From the NCBI GenBank assembly GCA_031082225.1, contig JAVHLG010000007.1, positions 31,663 to 89,554 on the forward strand: a stretch of 57,892 nucleotides of DNA. The letters are read 5' to 3'. The number at the start of each line of letters is the position of its first letter. Positions within the stretch are counted from its first letter, which is position 1. Positions 5,393-33,407 of this stretch are shown here, piece by piece. This stretch comes from Desulfovibrionaceae bacterium. GTDB lineage: Bacteria > Desulfobacterota > Desulfovibrionia > Desulfovibrionales > Desulfovibrionaceae. Both the position numbers and the translations under genes were made by a program. The notes beneath the pieces were generated by a model. That model had not been told where the DNA came from, did not search any database, and saw only the letters and a program-made list of their open reading frames with translations.

Positions 5393-6094
5393 TTGAGCTA
5401 CACCGTTGACTTTGGCCTGGTCCTTAACGAACCCTACCGCGAATGGATCCTGCAAGGGCTTGGCGTCACCCTGCAGATATCCGCCGTGTCCATCGTCTTG
5501 TCCCTGCTGCTGGGCACCATCATCGCCGTGTTCCGCCTGTCCCGGGTCAAGCCCCTGGTCTGGTTCAGCCTGGCGTTCACGGAGTTTTTCCGAAACACCC
5601 CGCTCCTGGTCCAGATCTTTTTCTGGTACTTCGGCTCCCACGCCGTGCTGCCCGATGTCGTCAACAAATGGCTGTACAGGCAGGATTTCGAATTCGCGGC
5701 CGGGGTCATCGCCCTGACCGTGTACACCTCGGCGTTTATCGCCGAGGAGATACGTTCCGGCGTCTTCGCCATTCCCAAGACCCAGCTCGAGGCCTCGCGG
5801 GCCTGCGGCCTGTCCTTTCTCCAGGCCATGGGCTACGTCATCCTCCCCCAGGCCTTTCGCATCGTCATCCCGCCTTTGATCTCCCAGTTTTTGAACCTCA
5901 TCAAGAACTCGTCCCTGGTCATGACCATCGGCGTCATGGACCTGACCTATATGGCCCGGCAGATCGAGGCCCACACCTTCCACGGCTTCGAGGCCTTCAC
6001 CGTGGCCACAGCCATCTACCTGACCATTTCGCTCATCGTCTCCTACACCATCAATCTCTACAACAAACGGGTCCTTCGGGTCGCCTCGCATTAG
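5393..6094 (+). CDS. Polar amino-acid ABC transporter permease
   Basis: A 233-residue HisMQ/GlnP-type inner-membrane permease with about five membrane segments. The EAA loop that contacts the ATPase reads ASRACGLSFLQAMGYVILPQ, and ITKNSSL-type residues follow (LIKNSSLVMTIG). It probably forms a heterodimer with the next gene's product. The start is TTG 5393 with GGAG 8 bp upstream; no ATG gives a full-length N-terminus. Confidence 0.93.
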   Translation: MSYTVDFGLVLNEPYREWILQGLGVTLQISAVSIVLSLLLGTIIAVFRLSRVKPLVWFSLAFTEFFRNTPLLVQIFFWYFGSHAVLPDVVNKWLYRQDFEFAAGVIALTVYTSAFIAEEIRSGVFAIPKTQLEASRACGLSFLQAMGYVILPQAFRIVIPPLISQFLNLIKNSSLVMTIGVMDLTYMARQIEAHTFHGFEAFTVATAIYLTISLIVSYTINLYNKRVLRVASH

Positions 6095-6107: not shown

Positions 6108-6803
6108 GTGCACTGGGACGTCATTTCCAACAACTTCAGCTACTTCCTGATAGGAGCCTATCCCCAAGGCCCCCTCGGCGGGCTGGCCATGAGCATCCTC
6201 TTGGCCCTGGGCGGCATTTTCGGGGCCTTCTGGCTGGGGCTTTTGATCGGGCTTATGCGCATCTCCAAAAGCCGGTTCTGCCGCATCTTCGCCCTGGTCT
6301 ACACCGAGATCATCCGGGGCACGCCGCTGCTCATGGTCATCTTCTGGTTCTATTTCCTGGCCCCCATCGCCTTCGGCCACACCCTTCCCGAGGCGGAAAG
6401 CGCGCTCATCGCGCTTATCGTCTTCACCAGCGCCTACATCGCGGAGATCGTGCGGGCCGGGATCGAATCCCTGCCCAAGGGACAAAGCGAGGCCGCCCGG
6501 GGCACCGGACTTTCCCGCCTCCAGGCCATGCGCTACGTCATCCTGCCCCAGGCGCTTTTCAACATGATCCCGTCGTTCGTGAACCAGTTCGTGTCCCTGA
6601 CCAAGGACACCTCCCTGGCCTTCATCATTGGCGTCAACGAACTCACCAAGGCCGCCACCCAGGTCAACAACCGCACCCTGAACGCCCCCACGGAAATTTT
6701 CATCACCATCGCCGTGCTCTACTTCATCATCTGCTACGTCCTGACCGCCCTCTCCCGCCGCCTGGAAAAACGCATCAACCGCTATCAGGCCCGCGACCGC
6801 TAG
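6108..6803 (+). CDS. Polar amino-acid ABC transporter permease
   Basis: The second permease of the importer, 231 residues, with the same fold and an EAA loop AARGTGLSRLQAMRYVILPQ followed by VSLTKDTSLAFIIG. The start is GTG 6108 with GGAG 8 bp upstream, 13 bp after the previous stop. Last gene of the glnQ-glnH-permease-permease operon. No convincing terminator is visible in the 145 bp that follow, and that gap holds no gene. Confidence 0.93.
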   Translation: MHWDVISNNFSYFLIGAYPQGPLGGLAMSILLALGGIFGAFWLGLLIGLMRISKSRFCRIFALVYTEIIRGTPLLMVIFWFYFLAPIAFGHTLPEAESALIALIVFTSAYIAEIVRAGIESLPKGQSEAARGTGLSRLQAMRYVILPQALFNMIPSFVNQFVSLTKDTSLAFIIGVNELTKAATQVNNRTLNAPTEIFITIAVLYFIICYVLTALSRRLEKRINRYQARDR

Positions 6804-18114: not shown

Positions 18115-18306
18115 TCAGTCCCGACGTCTGGTCAATATGCCGTACACGATGAGCCCAAGCCCGGCCAGCGCCAGCAGAAGGTAGTCGCGCTGGTAGATCA
18201 GAAGGGCCAGAAACATCACGAAAAGCGCCGCCAGCCGACCCGGCGGCATGGGGCCGCGCGATCTGCGGCCCGAAAACAGGCCGTTCAACCGGCCTCCCCA
18301 GCTCAT
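18115..18306 (-). CDS. Small hydrophobic membrane protein
   Basis: 63 residues with a basic N-terminus (NGLFSGRRSRGPMPPGRL) and two closely spaced hydrophobic segments (ALFVMFLALLIYQ and YLLLALAGLGLIVYGIL), ending RRRD. Its ATG overlaps the xerC stop by 4 bp, so it is the last gene of the cpoB-dprA-...-xerC operon and likely coupled in translation. Function unknown. Confidence 0.75.
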   Translation of the reverse strand: MSWGGRLNGLFSGRRSRGPMPPGRLAALFVMFLALLIYQRDYLLLALAGLGLIVYGILTRRRD

Positions 18307-19376
18307 TTCCGCCTCCGCCTTCCCCCTGCCGCCGGGCCGGGCGTTGCGCCGTCGGTCTTTGGCGGCGTCGTCGTGTTCCCGGCGTCGGCGTGGCCGGGAC
18401 CGGCGGCGGCCAGGGGATGGGACGTGTCGTAGATCTGCATGATGCGGGTCAGGTCCAGGTGGGTGTAGCGCTGGGTGGTGGTCAGCCGGGAATGCCCGAG
18501 CAGCTCCTGCACGCTGCGCAGGTCCGCCCCGGCCTGGAGCATGTGGGTGGCGAAGCTGTGGCGCAGCATGTGCGGATGCACGTGCTGGGGAAGCCCGGCC
18601 CCGGCGGCCATGTCCGCAAGGATGCGCCCCGCCTGCCGCCTGTTCAGGCGTAAGCCGCGCGAACCCAGAAAAAACGCCCTCTCCCCCGGCCCCGGGGAAA
18701 AGGCCCCGCGCACCGCGAGATAGTCCAGCATGCGCCGTTTGGCCGCCTCGCCCACCGGGGCCAGGCGTTCCTTGCCGCCCTTGCCCGCAACCCGGGCCAC
18801 CCCCCGCGACAGATCCACGTCCAGCATGTCCAGGGACACGGCCTCGCTGACGCGAAGTCCCGCCCCGTAGAGCAGTTCGGCCAGGGCCATGTCCCGCACG
18901 GCCCGGGGGTCCATGGCGTCCCCGGTCTCCACCAGGGCCTTGGCCTGGTCGGCGTTGAGCGCCCCGGGATGGCGCTTCTCGCTTTTGGGATTTTTCACCC
19001 CGGCCAGGGGATCGGCGGCCACCAGCCGCCTGCGCAAAAAATGCCGAAACAGGCCGCGCAGGCTGGAGAGCTTGCGGCCCATGGAGGTCTTGGACAGGCG
19101 GGCCCGGTGCAGGTCGGCCAGAAAGCCGCGCACATGGTCCCGGGTCACCGTGGACGGATCGGCCAGGGTCAGGCCCCGGCGGGCCAGATAGTCTTCGAAC
19201 TGGGCCGCGTCCCCGGCATAGGCCGCCACCGTGGCCGCAGAATAGCCCTTCTGCCCGGCCAGGTAGTCCACGAATCCCTGCACGGTGTCCGGCAGGCGGG
19301 TCGGGCCGTCTCCGGCGTCAGCCGGGGAGGCCCGGCGTGTGTTGCGGGGAGCCCCCGCGCCGTTGGTCCAGGACAT
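18303..19376 (-). CDS. xerC: Tyrosine recombinase XerC/XerD
   Basis: A 357-residue tyrosine recombinase with a SAM-like N-terminal core-binding domain (about 30-115) and a catalytic domain carrying the full set: Arg175 (GAGLRVSE), Lys199/Lys202, His269 and Arg272 (HPHMLRHSF), His295 (LLGHSRLTT) and the nucleophile Tyr304 (QRYTH). Such enzymes resolve chromosome dimers at dif. The chromosomal operon context, with no phage genes nearby, supports a housekeeping Xer role rather than an integrase; XerC versus XerD cannot be told here. The first 59 bp overlap the end of the GGDEF gene; a GTG near 19286 is an alternative start. Confidence 0.93.
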   Translation of the reverse strand: MSWTNGAGAPRNTRRASPADAGDGPTRLPDTVQGFVDYLAGQKGYSAATVAAYAGDAAQFEDYLARRGLTLADPSTVTRDHVRGFLADLHRARLSKTSMGRKLSSLRGLFRHFLRRRLVAADPLAGVKNPKSEKRHPGALNADQAKALVETGDAMDPRAVRDMALAELLYGAGLRVSEAVSLDMLDVDLSRGVARVAGKGGKERLAPVGEAAKRRMLDYLAVRGAFSPGPGERAFFLGSRGLRLNRRQAGRILADMAAGAGLPQHVHPHMLRHSFATHMLQAGADLRSVQELLGHSRLTTTQRYTHLDLTRIMQIYDTSHPLAAAGPGHADAGNTTTPPKTDGATPGPAAGGRRRRK

Positions 19377-27272: not shown

Positions 27273-29030
27273 ATGACCCGAAAATTTCTGGCCGCCGCCG
27301 TGGGGCTTTTCGTCATCCTGGCCTCGGTGGTGGCCTTCATGGGCTGGCGGGCCAAAAACGAGATCGAACAGGTCGCCACCGACCAGTTCAACAGCCAGCA
27401 ATTGCTCCTGGCCCAGAAGATCGCCGACGACATCGACGAACACTTCACCTTTCTCAAAACCAGCCTGCACAGCCTGGCCACGATATGGGGCCGGACGCCC
27501 TCCGACACATCCGATCCGGCCGCCGCCATCCAGCCGTATTACCAGATGCTTAAGCACTGGAAGGTGCTGGCCATGGGTTTTTCCCCGGAAGCCGACGCCC
27601 GGACGCAGTGGTTCGACGACGCCGGCCGCCTTGGCGGCGACCTCGGCCTCGACGCCACGACGGCCCTGGCCTTTGTCCGCGATCCGGCCCGGCCCGGGGC
27701 GGTGTTCGTGGGCCGGGTGGCCGTGCCCAAGACAGGGCCGTTTACCGGGAAGCGGGTGATGCTCATGGCCGTGGGGGCGCCCGGCAAGGATGATCCGGGC
27801 AGGATGGCCGGGGCCATCCTGCTGGTGCTGGACGCCATGGCCATCGCCCGGGAGTACGCCCACGGGGTGCGTTCCGGGGAGACGGGCTACGCCTGGGTGG
27901 TGGATGACCAGGGCTTTTTCCTGGACCACTACGAGGATCGCTTCCTGGGCCAGCATTCCATCGAAACACGGCGCGAACGCAATCCCTCCCTGGACTGGTC
28001 GCGCATTGAAAGCCTGCTGCGCGACCGCATCCTCACGGGCCAGACGGGCACGGACTGGTACGTGTCCGGATGGCACCGGGGGGTCATCTCCGAAATGAAG
28101 AAGCTGGCGGCCTTCTGTCCGGCCCTGCCCTCGGGCACGGACGACCCGGGCAACATCTGGGGGGTGTGTCTGGCCGCCCCGGTCACCGAGGTGCATGGAC
28201 TCATCGGGCGTCTGGTGGTGCGGGAATGGCTGATGGTCGGACTCTTCGAGTCCGTGGTCTTTTTCGGATTCGTGGTGGCCATGTATTTTTCCCTGCGCTT
28301 TTCCCGGATGCTCGGCACGGAGGTGGAGCGCAAGAAGGAGGAACTGGTCAAGGCCCAGGAAAAGCTCATCCGCTCGGAGCGGTTCGCGGCCATCGGCCAG
28401 GCTGCGGCCCACATCTCCCACGAGATCAAAAACCCGCTCATGCTCATGGCCGGGTTCGCCCGGCAGGTCCGCAAACGTCTGCCCGAGGACGACAAGGACG
28501 CGGAGAAGCTCAAAATCATCGAGCAGGAGGCCGGACGCCTGGAGAACCTGCTGGGCGAGGTGCGCGACTTCAGCCGTCCCACGCCGCCGCGCATTGATTA
28601 CGGGGACATCAACGCCACCGTTGAAGAAACCGCGAAGATGATGGCCGAGGGGTTCAAGACCCGCCAGATCACGGTGCGCATGGCGCCGGGGCGGGGCATC
28701 CCGGCCGTGCCCCACGACCCCAACCGGGTGCGCCAGGTGCTCATCAACCTGATGAAAAACGCGGCCGAGGCCATGCCGGGCGGCGGCGAGATACGGGTCG
28801 CCACGGATTTTGCGGACGGGTTTGCCGTGCTGCGCGTGTCCGACACCGGCGGCGGCATCCCGCCGGATGTGGCCGGGCACATCTTCGAGCCCTTCTGCAC
28901 CACCAAGGAGAGCGGCACGGGGCTTGGGCTGGCCGTTTGCCAGCGCATCGTGGAGGACCACAAGGGCGAGATCGCCTATGCCTCCTCGCCGAGCAAGGGG
29001 ACCACGTTCACGGTGAAGCTGCCGGTGTGA
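27273..29030 (+). CDS. Membrane sensor histidine kinase
   Basis: 585 residues. Two membrane helices (about 5-25 and 320-345) flank a periplasmic Cache-like sensor domain that contains GYAWVVDDQGFFLDHYEDRFLG. The cytoplasmic kinase has the phospho-acceptor His383 (AAHISHEIKNPLMLM), N-box NLMKNAAEAM, G1 DTGGGIPP and G2 [13 protein letters not shown] lies before ATG 27273. There is no adjacent response regulator. The last 53 codons plus the 10 bp after the stop are repeated at 30035-30205, across a toxin-antitoxin-like island, and the C-terminal SPSKGTTF differs from the SPGKGTTF of the second copy. Confidence 0.94.
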   Translation: MTRKFLAAAVGLFVILASVVAFMGWRAKNEIEQVATDQFNSQQLLLAQKIADDIDEHFTFLKTSLHSLATIWGRTPSDTSDPAAAIQPYYQMLKHWKVLAMGFSPEADARTQWFDDAGRLGGDLGLDATTALAFVRDPARPGAVFVGRVAVPKTGPFTGKRVMLMAVGAPGKDDPGRMAGAILLVLDAMAIAREYAHGVRSGETGYAWVVDDQGFFLDHYEDRFLGQHSIETRRERNPSLDWSRIESLLRDRILTGQTGTDWYVSGWHRGVISEMKKLAAFCPALPSGTDDPGNIWGVCLAAPVTEVHGLIGRLVVREWLMVGLFESVVFFGFVVAMYFSLRFSRMLGTEVERKKEELVKAQEKLIRSERFAAIGQAAAHISHEIKNPLMLMAGFARQVRKRLPEDDKDAEKLKIIEQEAGRLENLLGEVRDFSRPTPPRIDYGDINATVEETAKMMAEGFKTRQITVRMAPGRGIPAVPHDPNRVRQVLINLMKNAAEAMPGGGEIRVATDFADGFAVLRVSDTGGGIPPDVAGHIFEPFCTTKESGTGLGLAVCQRIVEDHKGEIAYASSPSKGTTFTVKLPV

Positions 29031-29040
29031 GGAGACACGG
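28870..29040 (+). repeat. Left 171-bp direct repeat (3' end of the histidine kinase gene)
   Basis: Covers the last 53 codons, stop and 10 bp of flank. Matches 30035-30205 at 166 of 171 bases without gaps. Four of the five differences are synonymous third-position changes; the other changes Ser to Gly. Confidence 0.95.
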
Positions 29041-29107
29041 ACGGCGTCAGAGCGGGAGGCCTGCCTCGTAGGCGCACGATCCCGGCCGCCGAATGCTTAC
29101 AGATCGA

Positions 29108-29470
29108 TCATGCAGGGCCGCCATGGCTGCGCAATTCCGTCAAAACATCTTTCAGCGCCGACTTTATCAGCCTTACGACCTCTGTCTCACGCTGCGGTTG
29201 TCCTTTCTTGTACACGACGACCGGCACAATCGAACCGCCATCCGTCACCAGAAAAACAACTCGAAGCCCCTTGCGAGACGATATGTTATATTCCGAAAGG
29301 GGAAGGCGGCATTTCCTTAAATGCGCAGACTGAAATCCAGGATACCGATCACCACTCGTGCGATCGATATTTTCCAATCCCCTCTCAAGGCCTTCCTTGC
29401 TTTTCGGATATTTCGACAACGCCTTGTCAAGCGACTTGTCGAACGCCTTAGTTCGATTTGGCAGCGGCAT
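29108..29470 (-). CDS. RelE/ParE-like toxin candidate
   Basis: 120 residues. The pattern [15 protein letters not shown], then LRKCRLPLSEYN, SRKGLRVVFLVTD and VVVYKKGQPQRE follows the RelE/ParE ribonuclease or gyrase-toxin fold: an N-terminal helical hairpin, then a sheet that carries basic residues. Known relatives act as type II toxins neutralised by a partner encoded upstream. The start overlaps the end of the 144-residue upstream gene by 23 bp, the usual antitoxin-first layout. Base composition is AT-richer than the chromosome. The family call is by pattern only. Confidence 0.66.
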   Translation of the reverse strand: MPLPNRTKAFDKSLDKALSKYPKSKEGLERGLENIDRTSGDRYPGFQSAHLRKCRLPLSEYNISSRKGLRVVFLVTDGGSIVPVVVYKKGQPQRETEVVRLIKSALKDVLTELRSHGGPA

Positions 29471-29882
29471 CGACGACGCGGGAAATTTCGAGGGTCAATT
29501 CGAGGATTTCCGGATCACTGGAAACGCTCAATTCTTCCACAAAGTCATCCCAGTCAGAAACAGCCATTTCATAAAACAGCTTTACGTGGTAAATGGCTTT
29601 GTTCTGTTCGATTTTTGGGATCAACAAGGCTAAAGCATTTCGTATCTTTGCCGCCTCGATGCATAGCGACATAAGGTCTGCGTCGGATTTCCCTGCATCG
29701 ACCTTCATCTGAAGCATGATTCTTTCGCAGGCATTCAGGATTTTAAACAGATGCGCAATGGTCTCCATGACATTTTTTGGAATCGGAGACATTTTCTGTT
29801 CCACGACACAAAATGGAACACTGTCGATAAGTCCCGAAACCTCTGAATGGGCCATGGGCTGTTGTGCAGAAAGGCAAGCCAT
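29448..29882 (-). CDS. Probable antitoxin partner of an unrecognised family
   Basis: 144 residues, predicted almost all-helical ([27 protein letters not shown]..., [36 protein letters not shown]). No ribbon-helix-helix, AbrB or helix-turn-helix motif is visible, so it is not a standard antitoxin. GGGGAGGA lies 5 bp before ATG 29882, a better ribosome site than the downstream gene has, in keeping with antitoxin excess. It overlaps the toxin-like gene and is transcribed first. Function is inferred from position only. Confidence 0.62.
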
Positions 29883-29976
29883 ATGTCCTCCCCGGTTTTT
29901 CCGGTTTCCCGTGGAGCCAGGGCAGTTTCAAACCCCCCAGGGTACATGTCGCCCTTATGGTAAACCAAGAATTCAC

Positions 29977-30002
29977 CGCCTCGTCAACAGAGGCGCTTTT
30001 TT
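29977..30002 (+). terminator. Hairpin plus T run; overlaps the toxin-antitoxin promoter
   Basis: Read on the plus strand, CGCCTC 29977-29982 pairs with GAGGCG 29990-29995 around a 7-nt loop and is followed by C and six T: an intrinsic terminator. Read on the minus strand, the same palindrome spans TTGACG, a -35 box, with TTTACC 17 bp later, upstream of the antitoxin gene. It could therefore also be the operator for autoregulation. Confidence 0.65.
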
Positions 30003-30034
30003 CAAAAAAAACAGAGCTTTATATGAAATTTTCT

Positions 30035-30205
30035 TGGCCGGGCACATCTTCGAGCCCTTCTGCACCACCAAGGAGAGCGGCACGGGACTGGGGCTGGCCG
30101 TGTGCCAGCGCATCGTGGAGGACCACAAGGGCGAGATCGCCTATGCCTCCTCGCCCGGCAAGGGGACCACGTTCACGGTGAAGCTGCCGGTGTGAGGAGA
30201 CACGG
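30035..30205 (+). pseudogene. Right 171-bp repeat: orphan 3' end of a histidine kinase gene
   Basis: Encodes only the final 53 residues of the kinase ([20 protein letters not shown]... to the stop) plus 10 bp after the stop. No kinase start lies upstream; the frame enters from AT-rich island DNA. It keeps the more canonical SPGKGTTF box. Confidence 0.93.
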
Positions 30206-30231
30206 CGTGTGCTAAAATTTAATGCGTACAG

Positions 30232-31167
30232 TTATATTGTTGACGAAGCATTGCCTTTGCCAAGAACTGCTTCAATTCGTCTTGCTAATTTCTGTCTGAA
30301 TTCATCAAATCGGGCATTTTCCCAGAGAACACAATTATATTGGCGAATATCGAAATGTAAATCTTCCACATGATCCCTTCTACACGTAAAAAACACTTCC
30401 AGGCCTAAACCATGACCAAATCCCGCCTCGTAGTACACACCGCCTCTATGACCTGTAAAATCAGCAACCACAAATTTACTACGGCGAATTTGAACAATAA
30501 TTTCATCGTCAATTTTTTGATTATGTTCGCCGAAATCAACACGATGTGGCCGGTAGCCAGCTTCTACTATGGCAGGACTAATTGCTTTGGTGTATGCATT
30601 TTCAAGTTCGTCATTGAACCACATCGCGACAAAACCCTGCTGGCTTAATGGGTTCTTTTCTCTTAATTTTTCAAGGTGCTTCCATCCATTAGCTAGAATT
30701 ATTGCTGCATCCTCAGACTTCAATAACTGTATTCTCCCTTCACCAAAAAGGTAGTTCAGCAATGCATGGGTTTCATCTGTGTCATATGACCAAGTCGCGA
30801 CAAGTATTTCGTATTCTTTAAACTCAACTAGCTGACCAATGTGGGCTGTTTTTCTCGATATAAATTTTAGCAGTAAATCTGCTCTATCATTAAACGATGG
30901 GACTCGCATATCTTCGCATCTTTTTAAATCATCGTCATTAATCGTGCTAAACTCATTGCAATAGTAGTGCGCCCAGCTTGAAGCATTGGCAACTGACCGG
31001 GAACTTTGATTTTTGCTATACTTTTCAAACCAGTAACCAACTGCATCTTCTGTTATTTTAAAACGTCCACATCTGTCACAACATACAAACATCACCCCAT
31101 CGCCCGGCTCACATACGGATTCATGACCGACAGAAAAGCATAATGGGCATTTCATCTTGTCCCACAT
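30232..31167 (-). CDS. Zinc-ribbon protein with nucleoside 2-deoxyribosyltransferase/TIR-like domain
   Basis: 311 residues in strongly AT-rich DNA (about 40% GC by eye). The N-terminus has a zinc ribbon: CPLC, a further Cys, then VCCDRCGRF. A helical middle follows. The C-terminal third has GFVAMWFNDELENAYTKAI, KIDDEIIVQIRRSKFVVADF, GHRGGVYYEAGFGHGLGL and HFDIRQYNCVLWEN. This is a family near PF05014/TIR-like NAD- or nucleotide-cleaving domains, with Glu in YYEAG as a likely catalytic residue. Such modules often act as toxic effectors in antiviral systems. ATG 31167 is chosen because AGGGAGG lies 6 bp upstream. It is outside the direct repeats but in the same low-GC island. Confidence 0.85.
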   Translation of the reverse strand: MWDKMKCPLCFSVGHESVCEPGDGVMFVCCDRCGRFKITEDAVGYWFEKYSKNQSSRSVANASSWAHYYCNEFSTINDDDLKRCEDMRVPSFNDRADLLLKFISRKTAHIGQLVEFKEYEILVATWSYDTDETHALLNYLFGEGRIQLLKSEDAAIILANGWKHLEKLREKNPLSQQGFVAMWFNDELENAYTKAISPAIVEAGYRPHRVDFGEHNQKIDDEIIVQIRRSKFVVADFTGHRGGVYYEAGFGHGLGLEVFFTCRRDHVEDLHFDIRQYNCVLWENARFDEFRQKLARRIEAVLGKGNASSTI

Positions 31168-31173
31168 ACTCAT

Positions 31174-31438
31174 CCTCCCTGAAAGCGCAACACAAGCTAT
31201 TAAATATCAACGTTCGCCATTTTTATTATCTGAATGAAGTGAAAGTAGTTTAACATTTATGCATCACCAGGAACTGGTTCAGATAGAAATGCCAAGAAGA
31301 ACAAAACGCCCAGCATGTTCGACAGGCTGGTATCTATAAAACTTTTCTTGACGTTTAATACACCCTTGGCGACAGCGTGGCAACCGAAATAGGTATATAG
31401 ACTGGCAAAATAGCAGCGAATCCTGTAAACGACCGGCG
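31174..31438. other. AT-rich gap at the island's right edge
   Basis: Upstream of the zinc-ribbon gene. It holds that gene's promoter and an open minus-strand frame (about 31257-31438) reading KGVLNVKKSFIDTSLSNMLG followed by FFLAFLSEP, without a start or ribosome site. This is possibly the tail of a gene cut off when the island formed. GC returns to chromosomal level at about 31440. Confidence 0.45.
31225..31253 (-). promoter_or_regulatory. Promoter of the zinc-ribbon/TIR-like gene
   Basis: On the minus strand, TTAAAC (31248-31253) and GATAAT (31225-31230) are separated by 17 bp, with about 50 bp of leader to ATG 31167. The -10 matches consensus at five of six. Confidence 0.55.
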
Positions 31439-32684
31439 TTATTCCCCGCCGCCGCGCAGGGCCTCGATGGGGTCCAGGGAGGCGGCCTTGCGGGCGGGCC
31501 GTATCCCGAAGACCAGGGCGATGCCAAGGGCCGCCGCAAGCGACAGGATGGGGATTTTCGGCGTCAGCACCAGCTTGAGCAGCCCCAGGCTGGAGAGAAT
31601 CTCCCCCAGCCCGATGCCGATGCCGATGCCCAAAACCGCCCCCACCACCGTCAGCACGCAGGCCTCGCACAAAAACTGCACCGTCACCGCCCACCCCGGC
31701 GCGCCCAGCGCCTTGCGCAGCCCGATCTCCTCCCGCCGCTCGCTGACGCTCAAATACATGAGATTGGCCAGCACGAACCCGCCCACCAGGATGGCCACCC
31801 CGGCCGTGACCCCCAAAAAAACGGTCATGCCCCCGGTCACGGCCGACAGAAACTTCAGGATGTCCGCCGCCGACAAGAGGGAAAAATCGTCGGGTTCGCC
31901 AGGGCCGATGCCGTGCTGGTGGCGCAGCAGGGATTTCAGGTTCTCCAGATGGGAATCCATGAGCGAGGGATCGTGGAACTTGACCCGAAGCCCCCGGAAA
32001 TACTTGCGGTCCATGTTGAAACGCTGGGTCAGGGTGGTGATGGGCATGATGATCCGGTCGTCCACCGAGGTGTCCCCGCCGCCGCCCGTGAAGCCCCGGT
32101 AGGCCAGCCGCCCCACCACCTGCACCGGCAGATCCTGGACCAGGATGGTCTTGCCCAGGGGGGAGGCGTCGCCGAAAAGGGCCTTGGCCGGGGCGTCGCC
32201 GATGAGGCAGACCTTGGCCGAACGCTCGATGTCCTCAAGCGTCAGGTCGCGGCCTTCATCCAGGGGCCAGTCCCAGGTGTCGGCATAGTTTTCCGTGGCC
32301 CCCACGACCACCGGCGCCACCACGTTTTTGGCCTCGTGCCGCAGCACCACCGAGGGCTTGGAACGCATGGGGACCACGGCCATGACCCCGGGCAGGGAAC
32401 GGCTGATGGCCCGGGCGTCGTCCCAGGTCAGGGTCAGGACGCGCTGTCCCACGGGCCGGTTCTCGATGTCCCCGCCAAGGACCATCACCGCGTTGGGCCC
32501 GAACCACTCCACGATCTCCAGGGCCTTTTCGCGCGCCCCGTCCACCGAGGCCACGATGACCGTAAGCGCCGCAATCCCCAGGGCCACGGCGCTGGCCACG
32601 AACACGCCGCGCAGCTTCTGGGCCAGGATGGCCGTCACGGCCATGCCCAGGGAGCGCCAAGTCAGGCGCGCCGCATGCGCGGCG

Positions 32685-32704
<20 letters not shown>
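31439..32704 (-). CDS. MacB-like ABC transporter permease
   Basis: 421 residues from ATG 32704 (MTAGWSDAAHAARLTWRSLG); a GTG or ATG 24 bp upstream is possible. One N-terminal membrane helix (VFVASAVALGIAALTVIVASVDG), a large periplasmic MacB core domain and three C-terminal helices make up an FtsX-type permease. The motif VSERREEIGLRKALGAPGWAV is diagnostic. It works with the ATPase (its gene overlaps by 20 bp) and the upstream HlyD adaptor as a MacAB-type exporter or envelope machine. No outer-membrane channel gene is here. It ends at the edge of the AT-rich island. Confidence 0.93.

Positions 32705-33407
<703 letters not shown>

Follow-up and report, generated by a model that had tools for sequence, protein, structure and literature searches.

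Homology-facilitated illegitimate recombination is said to have been described in 2002 by de Vries and Wackernagel and by Prudhomme. According to the accessible part of PMC3240628, one-sided homologous addition has been demonstrated experimentally, and circularisation followed by a single crossing-over is another fate described for linear DNA in E. coli conjugation. One-sided addition has also been proposed for displaced effector/immunity genes, including displaced immunity genes of V. cholerae, and, as cited in the accessible text of the same source, for Rhs loci (PMC5361080). Classical cis-mobilizable elements (CIMEs) of 1.2–13 kb occur in composite islands of S. salivarius at rpmG, rpsI, fda and rplL (PMC7563491, in excerpt), a survey of small variable segments found flanking direct repeats at 10–18% of them, most under 30 bp (PMC2884548, in excerpt), and the site of prophage e14 is icd of E. 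coli (PMC5431349, in excerpt). The locus described here lies in a stretch of 57,892 nucleotides (hereafter the window) from contig JAVHLG010000007.1 of a Desulfovibrionaceae bacterium (GCA_031082225.1), where a toxin-antitoxin-like gene pair stands between two copies of the 3′ end of a sensor histidine kinase gene. The preferred explanation, given a probability of about one half, is one-sided homologous addition in which the kinase gene served as the anchor and the far side was joined illegitimately. Coordinates of the features are collected in Table 1.

The two gene ends form a gap-free direct repeat (D1) in which 166 of 171 positions are identical (~97%) at an offset of 1165 bp, and these values of the original prediction were unchanged on recheck. 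Each copy comprises two bases, the final 52 sense codons and the stop codon of the kinase open reading frame (ORF), followed by 10 bp; the prediction had given the same 10-bp flank but counted 53 codons before the stop. The second copy is far above chance, as it was recovered from the 4.08-Mb genome with an E-value of 2.8e-78 and the next-best match reached 1.6e-14 (74 bp, 84%); these two are the only full-length copies of the segment in the genome. The kinase gene itself is intact, and beyond its end lie, in order, the toxin-antitoxin-like pair, the displaced kinase end, the TIR-like gene and the permease gene. Pfam still recognises the end of HATPase_c in the ORF that contains the displaced copy (29716-30195). 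Because a second foreign-looking gene lies behind copy 2, there are two cargo segments, one for each gene-end copy. The G+C content alternates along the locus, from 0.66 in the kinase gene to 0.50 in cargo 1, 0.67 in the scar, 0.40 in cargo 2 and 0.68 in the permease gene. A match of the kinase to dCache_1 (4.8e-08) lies under the curated cut-off, making this only a possible dCache domain (Pfam), and the nearest named full-coverage relatives in a contig scan are from Solidesulfovibrio, with 52–55% protein identity and no strain nearer than that, which makes the host probably a sulfate reducer of the Desulfovibrionaceae. A second, weaker direct repeat of 160 bp (72.5% identity) is present elsewhere in the window, at 5788-5947 and 6488-6647.

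The differences between the two copies are suggestive of two working alleles. Four of the five are synonymous and the fifth is a Ser/Gly replacement, as originally reported. The changes were polarised with the two congeners G002 and G001 as outgroups; the rows of four more distant relatives, taken by position and out of register in at least three, were left out. Two changes are private to the copy in the intact gene, a silent one (GTT) and a derived Gly-to-Ser replacement, and three are private to the displaced copy (GGA, CTG and CCC), all of them silent. Silent outcomes are expected for 26.9% of random changes, so that the probability of at least four in five is 0.021 and that of three in three in the displaced copy is 0.019, small numbers in both cases. 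This synonymous bias supports the earlier view that each copy probably evolved as a working gene end, rather than one being a local copy left to drift. The prediction had also proposed asking which copy matches the allele of relatives; the comparison was made, and the copies match G002 at 151 and 150 of 161 positions. Resident and incoming copy cannot be told apart from these two congeners.

The same site was compared among the three genomes of the genus, namely the window's own, G001 and G002, with one genome per species. In G001 the site is empty, with one kinase end and the stop codon of the permease gene 9 bp beyond that of the kinase gene. In G002 a single kinase end is followed by ~1.47 kb containing a methyltransferase gene (Pfam Methyltransf_23, 8.7e-18) and then by the permease gene, with no repeat. 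The methyltransferase gene in this gap (L099, 9309-10733, minus strand) has a host-like composition. An empty site in one congener and different cargo in the other identify the site as a variable slot between two convergent genes. The second kinase gene end is absent from both congeners. Two patterns had been named as speaking against the original prediction, empty-site relatives that carry both copies and many tandem copies lacking cargo; within the three genomes neither occurred, both congeners being single-copy and the window's own genome having two copies. A search for the same gene end with other cargo was likewise proposed, and it yielded the methyltransferase-bearing site of G002 but no further scar at the kinase gene. 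The rest of the window is collinear with G002 along most of its length. Identity to G002 is 93.9% on the permease side (3.5 kb) versus 85.1% on the kinase side (7.1 kb), and a mosaic breakpoint was considered on the basis of this contrast; it was rejected, as collinear segments longer than 3 kb span 82% to 94% across the window and the closeness of the permease side consequently marks no breakpoint.

The 2.4 kb between the kinase and permease genes was searched for traces of a mobile element. None of 13 of its ORFs of at least 60 amino acids matches a mobility gene in Pfam, integrase- and excisionase-like genes included, and a six-frame search of the genome for tyrosine recombinases (PF00589) gave ten matches, none of them inside the insert; an integrase of the element's own between the repeats, as in e14, was not found by either search. 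The only PF00589 match in the window is a XerC-like ORF at 18303-19376 (NCBIfam XerC, 1e-92; 310.7 bits, just below the curated cut-off of 335), which sits where the window is collinear with G002. No 8-mer that could represent repeated arm sites is common to the two outer ends of cargo 1, the window contains no tRNA, no Rfam RNA was found in 28800-31500, and neither congener has an integrase-bearing related element at the kinase site. The original prediction had attributed the structure to an element that brought its own version of the gene end. For that part no support was found: searches of the insert gave neither an integrase or other mobility gene nor att-like repeats of arms, and the two copies cannot be sorted into resident and incoming from the two congeners. 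A one-sided homologous event between two strains would give an identical structure, so a dedicated element is not needed and the donor may be represented by either side. Phage and plasmid origins of the cargo were also considered and rejected, as three of its proteins have no close relatives in viral contigs and the toxin candidate has none in plasmids.

The identity of the pair in cargo 1 has been probed by profile, homology and structure prediction. Neither ORF matches Pfam, NCBIfam or PADLOC, Pfam gave no match for four homologues of the 120-amino-acid ORF, and a PDB sequence search with this toxin candidate was uninformative. Homologues of the 120-amino-acid ORF are present at 12 loci in 11 other genomes among the 348 searched, all from the same family. 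At seven of these 12 loci an ORF of 127–152 amino acids lies directly upstream, in keeping with the conserved two-gene arrangement of a type II toxin-antitoxin system, and at the other five there is none. The likeness of the partners is weak, since the six upstream ORFs that were aligned to the 144-amino-acid ORF are 13–23% identical to it, although most of the six have in common a short stretch, containing D-W, close to the C-terminal end. In a search of 297 genomes of the order, no genome but its own gave a match to the 144-amino-acid ORF. Helix-helix-three strands-helix is the order of elements in RelE/ParE toxins, and the 120-amino-acid ORF has a predicted order of H-H-E-E-E-H at low confidence (predicted local distance difference test, pLDDT, 48.7). 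Structures were predicted without alignments; the model of P0003 is too poor (pLDDT 35) and that of P0001 is suggestive only. A toxin-antitoxin label for the pair is plausible, albeit not proven.

Repeats around such toxin loci recur. A non-random sample of 120 high-scoring loci of two toxin families in the window's family was screened for direct repeats of at least 50 bp and at least 80% identity straddling the toxin within ~1.5 kb on each side. Sixty loci were taken at ±1.5 kb and 60 were trimmed to ±1.5 kb, the toxin position being nominal, which may put loci truncated by a contig end out of place. Straddling repeats were found at 11 of the 120 toxin loci versus 1 of 137 family control windows (33 kinase loci and 104 overlapping tiles, the latter from the surroundings of the kinase locus or its homologues in four relatives); in a control drawn from other taxa the count was 3 of 261. 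The family control is unmatched for accessory genes, so the contrast separates toxin loci from core regions and not from other accessory genes. Furthermore, the 11 loci are not independent, as L211 and L216 share one gene, L307 and L311 share another, and L168 and L173 look like one tRNA. Several further loci fell below the threshold in length, identity or flank and were not counted: L166, L174, L177 (55 bp, 78%), L189 (the G109 scar described below, 74.5%), L210 (70%), L257, L261, L284, L288, L289 and L291. A looser count with unequal flanks (6 of 51 for a 6.3-kb control, 1 of 33 for kinase loci) was replaced by this equal-flank count. The kinds of sequence repeated at the 11 loci (Table 1) indicate that more than one mechanism is at work.

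Several loci are worth describing individually. At L301 (2726-3787, genome G029) the end of greA and a terminator-like hairpin are duplicated (82%) around a HigB locus, with an insertion near the end of the second copy, and at L267 (2518-3388, G122) a ParE-family toxin gene and an upstream RelB-like ORF (by eye) form a 769-bp unit between two tRNA 3′ ends. At L147 (6100-10640, G165) a tandem array lies at a tRNA-Ala-like 3′ end (by eye) and contains TIR-like, HNH-like and RelE/ParE genes together with TTGGTCAACC-like arms; no integrase was noticed among its listed ORFs of at least 90 amino acids. Its repeats resemble cassette boundaries, but an integron origin was rejected because, judged by eye, they hold the 3′ end of a tRNA along with TTGGTCAACC-like arms, which point to tandem integration at the tRNA. 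L149 was likewise set aside as a comparable scar, its repeats lying at a tRNA (by eye) as in an ordinary island.

A hit of the TIR-like protein led to a second protein-gene end, in genome G031 of genus g30. Here the 3′ end of an unrelated glycosyltransferase gene (Pfam Glycos_transf_2, 2.4e-30) flanks a HigBA cassette (HigB, Pfam 2.3e-20), beyond which lie a deoxyribosyltransferase/TIR-like gene (Pfam Nuc_deoxyrib_tr, 1.8e-4, under the cut-off) and a convergent gene; given how the locus was found, its TIR-like gene is not independent evidence. The glycosyltransferase gene is present in 13 of the 15 g30 genomes, three of which have a second gene end (G031, 81 bp, 91%; G222, 88 bp, 98.9%; G109, 106 bp, 74.5%), flanking toxin-family genes in all three. 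No second end was found within the 3.3–5.1 kb searched in the other ten (0.3 kb only in G133), and the ORFs downstream differ among these ten (by eye). In G275, which is among the ten, a HigA gene (NCBIfam 7.1e-32) occupies the same position with no scar, and G081 has a partial HigB match. Scars are consequently not an obligatory product of insertion at this site. The glycosyltransferase 3′ end looks like a hotspot at which HigBA, a ParE-family gene and other ORFs are placed behind one stop codon. Silent differences account for five of seven in G031 (stop codon counted) and one of one in G222; pooled with the window, 10 of 13 are silent (P 3e-4, the pooling having been chosen after the data were seen). 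G109 differs in this respect, with 8 of 20 silent (P 0.16), and including it gives 18 of 33 (P 9e-4); the greA scar at L301 was excluded from the pool as its second copy has an insertion. The displaced copy in G109 is 83% identical to two other species versus 74% to its own gene (78 bp), and would fit either an allele from another lineage or decay.

Table 1. Positions of the features at the kinase locus (window coordinates) and of sequences repeated at other loci
Feature	Position or locus	Strand	Basis and remarks
Sensor histidine kinase gene, 585 amino acids, intact, holds copy 1	27273..29030	+	Pfam HATPase_c 7.5e-29, HisKA 3.4e-12
Gene-end copy 1, in intact kinase	28870..29040	+	Repeat D1; private changes GTT (silent), AGC (Gly to Ser)
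Cargo 1, 994 bp	29041..30034		Neither congener matches; G+C 0.50
RelE/ParE-like toxin candidate, 120 amino acids	29108..29470	-	No curated family; predicted element order
Overlapping upstream partner ORF, antitoxin candidate, 144 amino acids	29448..29882	-	Position beside toxin candidate
Terminator-like hairpin and T run, just inside scar	29977..29995	+	Weak: 1 found against a mean of 3.0 in shuffles
Gene-end copy 2, displaced 3′ end (scar)	30035..30205	+	Repeat D1; three private changes, all silent
Cargo 2 region	30206..31434		Neither congener matches; G+C 0.40
TIR/nucleoside deoxyribosyltransferase-like gene, 313 amino acids	30232..31173	-	PADLOC TIR effector 1.3e-12; Pfam Nuc_deoxyrib_tr 0.0079 (under the cut-off)
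MacB/FtsX-like permease gene, convergent with kinase; right border of insertion site	31439..32728	-	Profile matches
tRNA 3′ ends	L168, L173, L267, L206		By inspection
Glycosyltransferase end	L211, L216		By inspection
greA 3′ end and terminator-like hairpin	L301		GreA NCBIfam 6.4e-60
3′ part (short of stop) of gene with phage gp5-like domain, two genomes	L307, L311		
Repeated HNH-like genes in tRNA array	L294		Weak IscB-like match
5′ end of Fic-family gene	L314		
Second glycosyltransferase ends	G031 L146 6621-6701 and 7408-7488; G222 L245; G109 L247		

Taken as one-sided homologous addition, the locus would be a strain-variable insertion point between two convergent genes that received cargo on at least two occasions. 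Cargo 2 may have been in place behind the recipient's kinase end beforehand, and a donor molecule with the kinase 3′ end followed by cargo 1 would then have recombined with this recipient; in the mirror alternative, the cargo 2 side would have come in from the permease flank. One border would have formed by ordinary homologous recombination within the shared kinase gene, and the other would have been joined with no long homology, ~161 bp before the stop codon of the recipient's kinase gene. Across copy 1 the kinase gene runs on unbroken and stays collinear with G002 and G001, and to the left of the scar cargo 1 and the kinase gene have no similarity outside the repeat. Transformation, conjugation, transduction, or circularisation followed by one crossover are candidate routes. 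We infer both the one-sided joining and a source in another strain. An event of this kind yields exactly this structure, does not leave an integrase to be accounted for, and fits a type of site with varied neighbours, scarred or not. Several points weigh on the other side. One-sided addition is rare where it has been measured: in E. coli conjugation its frequency was 3x10^-10 per recipient (PMC3240628, accessible part). The divergence profile of the flanks has no breakpoint that could mark an incoming tract, and, with one genome per species compared, direction and source strain are conjectural. In addition, several of the straddling repeats in the survey are tRNA 3′ ends, which are classic integrase sites, and those at L206 enclose an integrase gene, while the G031 and G222 scars join HigBA at an identical position, as site-specific recombination or common descent would also produce.

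The main rival, which is possible but on balance unlikely, is that the copies are an attL/attR pair made by an integrase, in which an element targeting the kinase 3′ end brought its own end and later lost everything but the toxin-antitoxin-like pair by deletion, leaving a CIME-like remnant, or in which a tiny cassette was moved by an integrase in trans. The architecture matches that of elements at protein-gene 3′ ends, tRNA-end repeats surround toxin-antitoxin loci in the same family, and some of the genome's ten PF00589 matches could act in trans. The first 52 bp of the repeat are identical between the copies and could hold a core; no att or arm sites are known for the 171-bp repeat itself. 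This rival has to contend, however, with an insert in which neither an integrase nor an excisionase-like gene nor repeats of arm sites were found, with the lack of a third gene-end copy in the genome, and with the ten of 13 glycosyltransferase sites at which no second end was found (the search at one of them covering 0.3 kb). Duplication of the gene end within one lineage, with the cargo inserted later between the copies, is improbable: both copies are found in one species-level lineage and have in common a 10-bp flank absent from both congeners, but the synonymous bias (4/5 overall, 3/3 in the displaced copy), for all its small numbers, is not expected of a free copy. An assembly artefact or collapsed strain mixture is least credible of all. 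The assembly is a draft of 150 contigs, yet the 89,554-base contig extends more than 27 kb beyond the copies in each direction, the sequences adjoining the two copies differ on both sides, the private differences are consistent, and completeness and contamination are 99.98 and 0.01, respectively. A broader proposal is that small toxin-antitoxin cassettes bounded by host gene 3′ ends are portable, integrase-free units. RecA would loop out a circle carrying one gene end, a single crossover into any cell with that gene would restore the gene, and the gene end would act as a homology-based attachment site, giving rise to strain-variable hotspots. This generalisation is offered as a doubtful one.

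Small defence and addiction genes often stand alone between core genes with no mobility gene near them, and the route by which they arrived is difficult to trace. A displaced gene end is a scar that the joining event leaves. Should wider surveys bear the pattern out, such scars could be used to gauge how frequently one-sided homologous recombination, as opposed to an integrase, brings in cargo of this kind, and the mechanism would become directly testable in the laboratory.

Compared with known systems, the kinase locus resembles homology-facilitated illegitimate recombination in having homology on one side and an illegitimate junction on the other, a duplicated anchor being one expected outcome; it differs in that the process is deduced here from structure and in that the cargo is toxin-antitoxin-like and unrelated to the anchor gene. 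Prophage e14 supplies an alternative 3′ end of icd and carries its own integrase. As with e14, a gene 3′ end would be supplied from outside and the displaced end stays behind, but the stretch between the two kinase ends is ~1 kb and has no integrase. The pair in cargo 1 is similar to RelE/ParE-type pairs in its two short overlapping ORFs and RelE-like predicted element order, in contrast to which neither ORF matches a curated family and activity is predicted only. The CIMEs, as presented in the accessible text of PMC7563491, also consist of small integrase-less cargo between copies of a gene 3′ end and accrete in series, whereas the kinase gene has no known att core, parent element or integrase. 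Orphan effector/immunity genes and displaced Rhs C-terminal ends, as presented in the accessible text of PMC5361080, share with this locus a homology-anchored module that displaces an old gene or end and leaves part of it as an orphan; there the new end is itself the diverging cargo, whereas at the kinase locus the two ends are nearly the same and the cargo forms a segment apart from them. No paper combining "toxin-antitoxin" with "homology-facilitated illegitimate recombination" was found in the literature searched, and no toxin-antitoxin cassette bounded by protein-gene ends is described among the top-ranked titles and abstract beginnings, in a coverage that leaves out most subscription journals. 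The principle is thus already known, and the free-standing toxin-antitoxin cargo is a variant of it.

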